Made by a program: the position numbers and the translations under genes. The notes under the pieces were generated by a model. That model was not told the DNA's origin. It ran no database searches and was given only the letters and a program-made list of their open reading frames with translations. Below are positions 5,238-62,895 of a stretch of 64,000 nt of DNA, one piece after another. Origin of the DNA: an uncultured Prevotellaceae bacterium (lineage in GTDB: Bacteria; Bacteroidota; Bacteroidia; Bacteroidales; Bacteroidaceae); assembly GCA_947167515.1 (NCBI GenBank), contig CAMVIM010000002.1, positions 1 through 64,000 of the forward strand. Reading direction: 5' to 3'. Each line of letters starts with the position of its first letter. Positions within the stretch are counted from its first letter, which is position 1.

Positions 5238-5371
5238 TAACACTTTTTCGGCTTCCACCGTTACACTTGTAACACACCCACTGTTACACTTGTAACACTA
5301 CGTCGGTTCTGTATGAGAGAATTTCTATGATGCACCTTCGGCATGGCATTGTTACACACCAGAGTGTGACA
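5236..5371. repeat. Cluster of TGTAAC/GTTACA half-sites
   Basis: The 515-bp gene-free stretch from 5131 to 5645 holds two identical 14-bp palindromes, GTTACA-CT-TGTAAC, at 5260-5273 and 5283-5296. A lone TGTAAC lies at 5236 and an imperfect dyad GTTACACA-CCAG-AGTGTGAC near 5350. The repeats sit about 150 nt upstream of the next promoter and look like protein-binding sites. Which protein binds is unknown. Confidence 0.5.
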
Positions 5372-5645: not shown

Positions 5646-8600
5646 ATGAAAAAGATTCTATACACACTCGCCCTGCTCTGCGCACTTGCACAGGGGGCAT
5701 GGGCAGAGGATGTGAAATACATCTACTACAAGGCAGTTGATGTTGGCAATCAGGCCAGCTTAAACAAATTCAATGGCACGGTCAGTAATCCTACCGTGCT
5801 CACCAGCAAGTTGCTGGAAGACAGCCCTGAGGACAACCTCGGCACTGGCTGGTATGTGCTGAACTCATCGTTTTCCTACCTTGAGCGCATTGTCATCAGT
5901 GGCGACGTGCACCTTATACTATGTGATGGCTGTACGCTGACGGCAGAGCAGGGCATCCGCATCAACACCGATGCCACGCTCTCCATCTACGCCCAGAGCG
6001 AGACGGTGGGAACGATGGGCAAACTCGTTGCCATTGAGACGCATCACGACAAGGCTGCCATTGGCGGCAACAAGAACTACAGGGCTGGCACACTCGCCAT
6101 CCACGGCGGCGAGATCGAGGCCACATGCAAGGATGGCAGCAAGTACGCAGCAGGCATCGGTGGAGGTTATGGCGATGGCTCAGGCATGAAAGCCATCACC
6201 ATCTACGGCGGCAAGGTGACGGCCCAAGGGGCTTATCTCGGAGCGGGCATCGGCGGAGGCAAGAACAACAACTATCCCGGCCACATCAACATCTATGGCG
6301 GCACGGTCAATGCCACGGGAGGCGGCTATGGTGCCGGCATCGGCGGTGGCGAGAACCGTGCCGGATGGAATACCAATGTATATGGCGGTAATATCACCGC
6401 CAAAGGCGGTGACTGGGCCGCAGGAATTGGCGGAGGCGAGGAAGGTGGTGGCGGCAACCTGCATTTCTATGGCGGCACGGTCAATGCCACAAGTGGTGGA
6501 TATGCTGCAGGCATCGGTGCCGGCGAGGATGCAGACGGCGGTACCATCATCATCGATGGTGGAAATATAACAGCCACGGGTACTTATTCGGGACCTGGCA
6601 TTGGCGGTGGCTCAGATGGAGATAGCCATTGGATTGATGGAAAGAAAAGCGGCACTATCACCATCAATGGCGGCACGGTCGTTGCAACAGGAAGCTACGC
6701 CTCGGCAAGTGCAGTTGATGCTGATGTAAGGTCAGGAGCTGCCATCGGCTCCGGTAATAGAGGAATTGTCGAGGCGATTACCATCACCGGGGGAAATATC
6801 AAGGCATACGCTAATAGCGGTGCTGCGGGAATAGGTGGTGGTAATAAATCTGTAGGTTGTGGAGTTATCAAAATCAGTGGCGGCACTATTTACGCCGAAT
6901 CAGAAAATAATCATACTGCTGACATCCCGGATTTTGGCGGGCCAGGTATCGGAGCCGGCAGTTATGCCACTGGAGGTGGTGAAATCAACATCAGTGGCAC
7001 TGCCGATATCGAAGTTGTTGGCGGTAAAGGGGCTGCAGCGATAGGTTGCGGCAATAATCTTCAAGAGGACTATAAATATAACATCTCAATAACTGGCGGA
7101 CATATAAGAGCACACGTGAGTAAATTGTGGAACAGTGTGGATGATATGATGCCCATGCTCATCGGTCTTGGTAGTGTAAATAGAAATTACATCAGCGAAA
7201 GTAGTGAAAAAAAATGTGCTACCGTCACCATTGCTGATGGATTGAGCCTATGGGCTGGGAATTATTTAAATCAAATGTCTATCCAAAAATACACAGACCG
7301 TATCGCTGTCTGCACAGGACGAGTCTATGGGTTTGGTGATATTAATACACATACAGATCACGGTGCCTTCAACTACACGTTGGGCGAATCCACCGAACAG
7401 CATGTTGCTCACTGCGGATACTGCGGTAAGACAGAGCCGGCAGAGAACCACACCAACGACGGAACAGGAAAGTGTGAGAAATGCGGATATGGCACACACA
7501 CATACACAGTCAAAGTATATAAGGCCACCGGCAGCGGCATGGGGTACGGAGAGGGCACCAGTTTAACTGGCGTCATCCCCGGCCAGAAGATGGCACTGCC
7601 TGACATCAACCAGAGCAACCTGCCCGCATACATGGTGTTCGAGGGCTGGCTGAAGGATCCCGCCACGGCTCCCACCACCTGGGAGAAGACCGCCGGCGAG
7701 ACGCTCCTCGCCCCCGGCGCAGAGATTACACCCGATGCCGACGTCAACCTCTATGCCCGCTACAGTTACCACTACGGCACGGAGTGGACATGGACCGCCA
7801 GTAGCACAACGGCCTCGGCAACGCTCAAGGTCATCAATCTGGAGGACAACAGCGTGGTCAAGACGTTCACCGCCGACGATGTAGCGATTACCGCCTCACC
7901 CACCGTCAATCCTACAAAAGACGAACCAGGCCACATCTTCTATGGTGCCGAGGCATCATATACCGACGACCAAGGCCGAAACTTCATCTTCACCGACGAC
8001 CGCACACAAGTATGGTATCTGGGAGTCGAACTGGATGAGGACGACAACACCACGACACTCGCCGACAACGATGGAGGCATTGTTACCGCTACCCTCACTA
8101 GCCGCACACTTTACAAGGACGACAAGTGGAACACGCTGTGCCTGCCCTTCGACGTGGAGGACATCAGCGGCTCACCCCTCAAGGAAGCCACGGTGAAGGA
8201 GTTCACCGATGCCGCCTACAACGCAGAGACGGGCACACTGACCCTCACCTTCGCCGATGCCACCAGCATCAAAGCTGGACAGGCATACCTCATTAAGTGG
8301 GAGGACAGCGGCACCATCCTCGGTCCCTCCGACCTCGTGTTCACTGGTGTCACCCTCGCCAAGGACTTGTGCGACGACGAGATTTCGACCGACGACAAGG
8401 GTACGGCCACCGTCGCCTTCCTCGGCACCTACAAGAAACTCACCTTCGATGCCGCCGACCAAAGCATCCTCTTCCTCGGGGCCGGCAACACCCTCTACTA
8501 TCCACAGAGCGGAGCCACCATCGGTGCCCAGCGCGCCTACTTCAAACTCAACGGCATCACCGCTGGCGACCCCGCCGCAGGCGCCAATGTCCGCGCCTTC

Positions 8601-8777: not shown

Positions 8778-8833
8778 TAATGGTTGGATAAAATTTATGG
8801 CTGTCCGCTAAACGTGGAAATTTGCGATTTTGC

Positions 8834-8864
8834 TTGTTTCTTTCGCCTGTTAGTTGTACCTTTG
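8834..8864 (+). promoter_or_regulatory. Promoter without a gene (duplicate of the pectate lyase promoter)
   Basis: TTG at 8834-8836, a 20-nt spacer and TACCTTTG at 8857-8864 form a canonical Bacteroidota promoter. The 54 nt at 8821-8874 match 9143-9196, the pectate lyase promoter, at 46 positions. No open reading frame follows; an intrinsic terminator does, about 35 nt later. Confidence 0.65.
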
Positions 8865-8869
8865 CACCA

Positions 8870-8931
8870 CGAAAGGTAGCGAAACGGCCTACGCTTAGGG
8901 GTGTGTCAAAATAGGCACATCCTCTTTTTTT
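8870..8931 (+). ncRNA. Candidate small RNA (about 60 nt)
   Basis: A transcript starting a few nucleotides after the -7 box at 8857-8864 would end at the intrinsic terminator 8899-8931, giving about 60 nt with no coding potential. It belongs to no family I recognise. Alternatives are a decayed promoter left from a duplication, with the terminator serving the upstream gene. Confidence 0.4.
8899..8931 (+). terminator. Intrinsic terminator
   Basis: GGGTGTGTC and GGCACATCC pair over 9 bp (two G-U wobbles) around a 6-nt loop, followed by TCTTTTTTT. It would end transcripts from the orphan promoter just upstream and from the glycine-rich repeat protein gene. Confidence 0.7.
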
Positions 8932-8977
8932 GAGCCTCCGAGACCGCACCCAATTGGTCAAAATGTACACACTCGTA

Positions 8978-9062
8978 GCCTCAAAACCAGAGTGAGTCAC
9001 ACCTGTGGGGGTGGTGTGACTCACACCTATGGTAGGGGTGTGACTCACACCTGTTTTGAGGC
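8978..9062. repeat. Palindromic element with three 24-bp repeats, copy 1
   Basis: Three tandem units spaced exactly 24 bp apart end at 9004, 9028 and 9052, each containing TGA(C/G)TCACACCT. In the second and third units the core GTGTGA-C-TCACAC is itself a palindrome. The array is bracketed by a perfect 10-bp inverted repeat, GCCTCAAAAC (8978-8987) and GTTTTGAGGC (9053-9062). The same architecture recurs at 62795-62895. Each frame stays open through the units because 24 is a multiple of 3, but no gene start or context supports translation. Confidence 0.7.
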
Positions 9063-9155
9063 AATTGGGGTTGGTCTTTTTGTACGATTGCGGATGGGCA
9101 TGACTTTTTGTGTTTATTCGTTGCGACTGATTGAGGTTAAAATTTACGATTTTGT

Positions 9156-9186
9156 TTGTTTCTTTCGATACTTAGTCGTACCTTTG
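9156..9186 (+). promoter_or_regulatory. Pectate lyase promoter
   Basis: TTG at 9156-9158, a 20-nt spacer and TACCTTTG at 9179-9186 match the Bacteroidota -33/-7 consensus. It lies 26 nt before the start codon. Confidence 0.7.
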
Positions 9187-9211
9187 CACAACGAAACTAA
9201 AAGAAGAATTC

Positions 9212-62794: not shown

Positions 62795-62895
62795 CTTCCA
62801 GCACGTTGAAATCGGTGTGACTCAGACCCCTACATGGGGTGTGACTCAGACCTCTATGTGGGGTGTGACTCAGACCGATTTTGGGGTGCTGGAAG
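62795..62895. repeat. Palindromic element with three 24-bp repeats, copy 2
   Basis: Three copies of GTGTGACTCAGACC start at 62815, 62839 and 62863, exactly 24 bp apart. They are bracketed by 22-bp inverted arms (62795-62816 and 62874-62895) that match at 18 of 22 positions, with CTTCCAGCAC/GTGCTGGAAG perfect. A T6 tract follows the right arm. It is in the 253-bp gap between the exporter and nadK. Unit length, core and arm layout equal copy 1 at 8978-9062, though the arm sequences differ. Confidence 0.75.

Follow-up and report, generated by a model that had tools for sequence, protein, structure and literature searches.

Copy 1, at positions 8978-9062 of the window (the whole stretch of 64,000 nucleotides that we analysed), is built of three dyad units of the GGTGTGACTCA[C/G]ACC type, which lie 24 bp apart inside a 10-bp inverted repeat (Table 1). 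The first-pass annotation of this DNA had described three units at an exact 24-bp period, the last two sharing a palindromic core, within a perfect inverted repeat, and we found exactly this: the units start at 8989, 9013 and 9037, the last two are both GGTGTGACTCACACC, and the arms GCCTCAAAAC and GTTTTGAGGC are fully complementary, being part of 26-nt arms that match at 88%. The annotation had also reported a second copy with the same unit and different arms. The same units are indeed present at 62814-62876, but the arms of both copies are related, and copy 2 departs from the common inner-arm consensus (given below) mainly in its outer part; a T run follows this copy.

The core TGACTCASACC occurs 15 times in the window with at most one mismatch, against a mean of 3.0 in shuffled sequences, and 15 occurrences were reached in 0 of 100 shuffles. 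Furthermore, both copies fold as single-stranded DNA better than all of their 200 shuffles (z of -5.4 for copy 1 and -7.0 for copy 2). Copy 1 is flanked on both sides by a 57-bp promoter-like stretch containing TACCTTTGCAC.ACGAAA, which occurs twice (8818-8874 and 9140-9196) with 86% identity. A terminator-like hairpin with a T run also lies nearby (8898-8931, from a scan at chance level); 33 bp of it match at least 8 places of another genome of the genus (G013) at 100%, and therefore it is a member of another dispersed repeat.

Table 1. Positions of the two copies and of their parts in the window.
Feature	Positions	Strand	Basis or remark
Copy 1, whole type-A element, AATTGGTC...GTACGATT	8952..9089	+	138 bp; boundaries from alignment of 14 own and 15 G014 copies
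Copy 1, outer left motif TTGGTCAAAATGTAC	8954..8968	+	type-A alignment; exact outer-motif search
Copy 1, left arm GCCTCAAAAC of perfect 10-bp inverted repeat	8978..8987	.	inverted-repeat analysis
Copy 1, dyad unit 1 AGAGTGAGTCACACC, two changes from consensus	8989..9003	.	unit search
Copy 1, dyad unit 2 GGTGTGACTCACACC	9013..9027	.	unit search
Copy 1, dyad unit 3 GGTGTGACTCACACC	9037..9051	.	unit search
Copy 1, right arm GTTTTGAGGC of perfect 10-bp inverted repeat	9053..9062	.	inverted-repeat analysis
Copy 1, outer right motif TTGGTCTTTTTGTAC, same direction as left motif	9071..9085	+	window sequence; type-A alignment
Copy 2 (type B), arms CTTCCAGCAC (62795-62804) and GTGCTGGAAG (62886-62895)	62795..62895	.	
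Copy 2, dyad unit 1 GGTGTGACTCAGACC	62814..62828	.	unit search
Copy 2, dyad unit 2 GGTGTGACTCAGACC	62838..62852	.	unit search
Copy 2, dyad unit 3 GGTGTGACTCAGACC	62862..62876	.	unit search

Copies across the genome and their anatomy

The genome of the window (G000; 3.68 Mb in 74 contigs) contains the exact 14-mer GTGTGACTCASACC 100 times, whereas the reversed pattern is found 0 times. All of the 100 exact matches fall within 41 arrays and the exact unit core was seen nowhere else in this genome; one further locus, L070, fetched for a shorter match, contained no array. Detected with at most three mismatches, the units number 121, and the arrays have three of them in 39 cases and two in the other 2. 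The later units stand at +24 and +48 from the first one in 35 arrays, at +24 and +47 in three, at +23 and +47 in one, and at +24 in the two-unit arrays.

The unit consensus is GGTSTGASTCASACC. When the 121 units are oriented by their centre, GGTGTGACTCAGACC (50 units) and GGTGTGACTCACACC (48) are the main forms, and GGTCTGACTCAGACC (3), which pairs as well as GGTGTGACTCACACC, is rare. The spacers measure 9 nt in 76 of 80 cases and 8 nt in the other 4, the commonest being CCTACCATA or its complement (18 of 80). Over 35 arrays the two spacers were oriented '--' in 16, '++' in 9 and in mixed fashion in 7, with 3 undecided. Both orientations of short spacers and of unit centres (ATTGGT/ACCAAT, CCC/GGG, TATGGTAGG/CCTACCATA) are seen in the arrays of this genome as well as in those of another genome of the genus, G033 (loci L224-L243), and such loops look as if they had been inverted in place by template switching.

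Regarding the arms, the inner-arm consensus over the 41 arrays is CCTCAAAATC/GATTTTGAGG, and outside it we distinguished two types by a motif script, although three copies called type B in the related genome G014 (L215, L217 and L221) look like type A by eye. Type A has the additional motifs TTGGTCAAAATGTAC to the left and TTGGTCATTTTGTAC to the right, both in the same direction, so that by eye its outer motifs are direct and its inner arms inverted. The boundaries AATTGGTC...GTACGATT are common to the 14 own and 15 G014 copies that we aligned, and little is shared beyond them except in a subset with a longer left extension; the length is 136-139 bp in the 20 of these 29 copies that the script could measure. 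By eye, the left end and the reverse complement of the right one, AATCGTAC, share only AAT.G. The arms of type B are longer (CTTCCACAGCCTCAAAATC/GATTTTGAGGCTGTGGAAG and similar), and compensated changes are present in some of them and mismatches in many; by eye they reach about 18-20 bp and have a T-rich outer sequence.

The copies are dispersed over 41 places, nearly all of them intergenic: 39 of the 41 arrays lie outside genes predicted by a simple in-house script, which flagged the other 2 inside an ORF. According to the same kind of prediction, 12 arrays lie between divergent, 6 between convergent and 17 between tandem genes, with 6 unresolved. As divergent, convergent and tandem regions are occupied alike, a regulatory role is neither favoured nor disfavoured. 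The neighbours include what we took from their sequences to be groES-groEL, der and purD, and among the 173 neighbouring proteins just a few paralogue pairs were found to recur, for which reason we rejected a recurrent neighbour gene as the putative DNA-binding factor.

Several other identities were discarded. A CRISPR array does not agree with 15-bp units, 8-9 nt spacers and only two or three units at 41 dispersed sites. A known structured RNA family was set aside because Rfam 15 gave no match at the gathering score in the window or in nine further array loci, and so was an rRNA or tRNA neighbourhood, since the same nine loci had no Rfam match and tRNAs were found at 2 of 40 loci and nowhere in the window. 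A phage or plasmid origin was rejected as well: no plasmid matched, the four phage matches were weak and partial (E 0.04-0.1), no viral contig had two units of the family under the exact pattern, and the 10 viral contigs with the frame pattern described below carried no array inside the matched stretch.

Constraint on the units

The letters of the units are conserved. In the 35 of 41 arrays with 24/24 spacing, the mean pairwise differences per site were 0.056 in units, 0.204 in inner arms, 0.421 in spacers and 0.741 in flanks 70-120 bp away, where the detection limit of three mismatches per unit and the omission of 6 of the 41 arrays bias the unit value downwards. TGACTCA was invariant in the 105 units of this set and nearly all the differences fell at positions 4 and 12. 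The orthologous loci give a comparison of another kind, using nine arrays shared by G000 and G014 (eight among 20 G014 loci picked from matches plus one added locus) whose aligned flanking DNA is 77-95% identical. Here differences affected 9 of 324 sites in the unit core and 21 of 81 sites at positions 4, 8 and 12; in the spacers they affected 50 of 135 sites, a count that drops 3 of 18 spacer pairs of unequal length.

Pairing within the unit is not favoured. Positions 4 and 12 paired in 50 of 105 units, with 54.5 expected from independent columns, and in 20 of the 43 G033 copies the two half-sites were identical in 21 of 60 units, with 28 expected. Low unit divergence together with unfavoured pairing means that the unit letters are kept as a sequence and not as a pairing rule. 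Therefore near-invariant units, diverged spacers and unfavoured pairing fit a protein site in duplex DNA better than a hairpin, although two observations count against the duplex reading: both window copies fold far better than shuffles, and some type-B arms have compensated changes, as a hairpin model predicts.

These two observations, together with the length and the T-rich outer sequence of the type-B arms and the T run after copy 2, are what speaks for the copies being bidirectional intrinsic terminators, or hairpins under selection as RNA. However, we consider this explanation quite unlikely, because pairing within the unit is not favoured, divergent gene pairs enclose 12 of the 41 arrays and convergent pairs only 6, and the terminator scans remained at chance (one match per copy, with 0.8 and 0.7 expected). 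The match near copy 1 (8898-8923) falls outside the element, and type A does not have a terminator layout by eye.

The conservation could also be only apparent if the copies were neutral relics of a recent MITE burst, in which the loop mutates faster or copies convert each other. Variants are shared between loci in a manner resembling gene conversion, as detailed below, and the spacers in both orientations are what loop inversion by template switching would leave. Nevertheless, the inner arms diverge too, and in orthologous loci the unit cores are kept where the aligned flanks have changed, which makes neutral relics very unlikely in our view.

A constant frame filled with different dyads

The unit family of the window (F1, the GGTGTGACTCASACC family) was found in 15 of the 37 genomes searched within the genus, this one among them, and in none of 24 from other genera; within the genomes searched the family is confined to one genus. 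Thus further copies, whose absence from related genomes the first-pass annotation would have counted against itself, do exist, and the reversed control gave none. In public records, unit plus arm occurred in 9 stretches from MAGs labelled Bacteroidaceae, Bacteroidales or Prevotellaceae. The record titles name goat reticulum and reindeer, and the genus is represented here by MAG records, several of which come from ruminants; RUG in the record names presumably stands for rumen. On a groEL+proC tree of 23 genomes the distribution of F1 is patchy (the label 0 of G061 on this tree means no measurement, F1 being present there by other searches). G003 has 3 unit matches and its sisters G000 and G014 have 100 and 86, and the largest number, 207, belongs to G020.

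In other species the frame CCTCWAAAT-three units-ATTTWGAGG is kept and filled with different dyads. The pattern CCYCNAAATC...GATTTNGRGG was found in 16 of 45 genomes of the genus, with a reversed control of 0 of 45. Among the inserts listed and classified by eye, the kinds were as follows:

i) F1 units, which fill the frame in G000, G014, G013, G002, G007, G003 and G061.

ii) CGGAGTC/CGATGTC dyads, which occupy it in G033 (at least 43 frames), in G066 (14) and once in G014. Of the 120 half-sites in 20 of the 43 G033 copies, 65 were CGGAGTC and 50 CGATGTC.

iii) CGACGTC-type dyads, in G003, G002, G016, G017, G026 and G061.

iv) Further kinds of dyad, in G067, G020, G003, G035 and G036.

All of the inserts among those listed contain three dyads at 23 or 24 bp, and different unit families coexist in single genomes, e.g. 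in G003, G014 and G061. A slightly narrower frame pattern gave 3 matches besides our genome among 393 genomes drawn from the order, with inserts free of arrays by eye, and its reversed control gave 4 in the same genomes. The same layout with swapped site letters in related species points to a fast-changing putative DNA-binding factor.

The copies also change in concert between G000 and G014. Immediately outside the outer units, G000 has the dinucleotide TC on 67 of 82 sides, and 21 G014 arrays have CA on 32 of 42; at 8 orthologous loci with TC on both sides in G000, CA stands on 12 of 16 sides in G014. Furthermore, three loci of G000 (L042, L056 and L064) share the 8-nt spacer GACAAGTC and a unit ending in CACATC, and the G014 counterparts of L042 and L064 have neither (for L056 no G014 counterpart was found). 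This sharing of variants resembles ectopic gene conversion, or a common response to a changed factor, and supports copying or conversion between places.

Instead of a mobile element, the arrays could be fixed host addresses, bound by a nucleoid or segregation protein, that organise or insulate the chromosome. The nine loci kept in place between G000 and G014, several with adjacent outside sequence that can no longer be aligned, agree with this, as do the indifference to gene direction and the restriction of the exact unit core to arrays. However, the copy number is patchy in near sisters, one genome may contain different unit families, and the internal variants common to three loci point to copying; we regard fixed addresses as rather unlikely.

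We also considered that orthologous sites might keep the array and change its units, but we dropped this idea. The surroundings of groESL contain arrays of several kinds in 9 of 30 genomes (shuffles gave 0), yet downstream of proC they were found in just 2 of 30, and looser settings raised this number to 4. The groES upstream regions were too divergent to align and were inspected singly, with 21 of 30 oriented.

Mobility, known relatives and other dyad arrays

The first-pass annotation had suggested a dispersed regulatory or mobile palindrome whose loop is a protein-binding array. The dispersed palindrome with such an array is borne out by the 41 copies, by units conserved far beyond the spacers and by the lack of selection on pairing, from which a binding protein may be inferred. 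The mobile part has indirect support only. On the one hand, 29 type-A copies have common boundaries and three loci share internal variants. On the other hand, no target-site duplication was seen by eye in the type-A alignment, the locus L055 is shorter in G003 and L060 is without the element in G014 but neither has a precise junction (L058 is filled in G014), and the exact outer motifs occur in G000 at arrays only (14 of 14 matches), so that no autonomous partner with type-A ends was seen by this exact search of the own genome.

Pneumococcal BOX repeats have modular ends around repeated inner units, as has the element described here; unlike in BOX, the unit number is fixed at three (39 of 41) and the inner units are dyads.

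The nearest described element that we found appears to be BrickBuilt, a MITE of Porphyromonas gingivalis, also of the Bacteroidales, and the nearest kind appears to be REP/REPIN, although, as far as the excerpted descriptions and our sequences go, neither definition fully applies. In its excerpted description, BrickBuilt is dispersed, intergenic and narrow in host range, with tandem 23-nt units between flanking segments that have small inverted ends and with no transposase inside (PMC4596501), features which our element shares apart from the unit length and the form of the ends. It consists of 1 to 22.8 direct repeats without spacers, plus a long leader and tail (PMC4596501). In contrast, here we found three dyad-symmetric units in 39 of 41 arrays, variable spacers of 9 nt (76 of 80) or 8 nt (4 of 80), 41 copies and unit letters that depend on the species within one frame.

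As regards REP/REPIN, the excerpts consulted describe extragenic palindromes that form species-specific families and are conserved as units of several parts (PMC3733652, PMC3116915). Our element is likewise a family of extragenic palindromes, and 22 of the 29 type-A copies have TAG[C/T] at the left arm foot and none of the 29 has it at the right one, a one-sidedness like that of the GTAG tag in REPs. Furthermore, G020, the genome with most unit matches, has a clear match to the Y1 transposase profile (Y1_Tnp, PF01797; E 7.8e-19), and 18 of 41 genomes of the genus have some match. Against manufacture by a Y1 (RAYT) transposase, the profile gave no match at E<=0.001 in eight carriers (G000, G007, G010, G011, G013, G014, G033 and G035), for which reason we rejected RAYT mobilisation in spite of G020. 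Unlike REPINs as described there, the units form a fixed-period array of three inside inverted arms and not doublets, pairing within the unit is not selected, and a TAG foot on either side was found in just 3 of 27 own type-B arrays. The G020 array found at 1.26 kb from the transposase match belongs to another family, with GAATAATTATTC. A REP/REPIN-type origin is therefore highly improbable.

Our preferred reading, to which we give a probability of roughly one half, is a genus-specific, non-autonomous, MITE-like element, which is short (138 bp), non-coding and multi-copy as MITEs are, and whose core is a three-site array for a putative, probably dimeric protein. The core would be composed of three dyad-symmetric 15-bp sites at a 24-bp period between the inverted arms. 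Each unit would be recognised in duplex form by a sequence-specific protein, probably a dimer, which occupies all three sites together, and the same or a partnered activity would spread the copies and homogenise them. The specificity of this factor may have changed repeatedly within the genus, the units following it. In G000 neither a cognate protein nor a mobiliser or partner was found with the Y1_Tnp profile, the 173 neighbour proteins and the exact outer-motif search.

A bolder version is that the genus runs a family of sequence-specific DNA-binding proteins whose chromosomal addresses are always triple-dyad arrays, and that genome-wide sets of at least 40 addresses change together from one species to its neighbour, with the frame and the number three remaining fixed. 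This we consider unlikely. PRDM9 is the known case of hotspot turnover, and a fast turnover of triple-dyad addresses would be its proposed bacterial counterpart.

In the literature covered we found no description of this family, although one could exist there under other wording or in literature of other scope. Thus an abundant intergenic element family of one genus is apparently undescribed, and its fixed three, its changing unit letters in a constant frame and its concerted change make it a natural experiment on the co-evolution of sites and protein. If the cognate protein exists, its specificity in each species can be predicted from the unit families.

Other dyad arrays were also found with a broader search for at least three similar dyads at 18-36 bp. 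This gave 12 arrays in the 455 kb scanned in the own genome (a non-random sample made up of the window and of parts of three contigs), 3 in 400 kb from G016, a genome without F1, and 2 in 273 kb from 20 genomes belonging to other genera, both of these in a single one; shuffled sequences gave 0 in each case. With looser settings the own genome had 28 against 0 in shuffles and the other genera 16 against 4, several of these in AT-rich stretches.

In G000 a second, intergenic family has GTTACACTTGTAAC-like dyads at 23 bp (window 5260-5296, L127:855-916 and L118:6877-6961), and the arrays of a small one have four ATTCATACTATGAAT each, 21 bp apart. Four ATTCATA.TATGAAT-like dyads at 21 bp stand right after TTCCAYYTTAG at L116:10625, L117:4584 and L121:16921, and related palindromes of repeated AAACTTTGAGTT-like units lie in different intergenic regions (L114:4639, L127:17635 and L129:1922). 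In G016, L155 has two three-dyad arrays (1711-1770 and 8348-8405) of CGAACATATGTTCA and GAGTTAACTC, each core being unique in the 400 kb sampled; they adjoin genes that we take to resemble those of Fic-domain and restriction-type proteins. The G020 array next to the Y1 transposase match (L135:3103-3157) has three GAATAATTATTC-like dyads at 21 bp and lies downstream of the match with one predicted gene between. Finally, G054, a genome of another genus, carries TCACAA..TTGTCA dyads with a period of about 23 bp in two arrays (L185:8232 and 9648).
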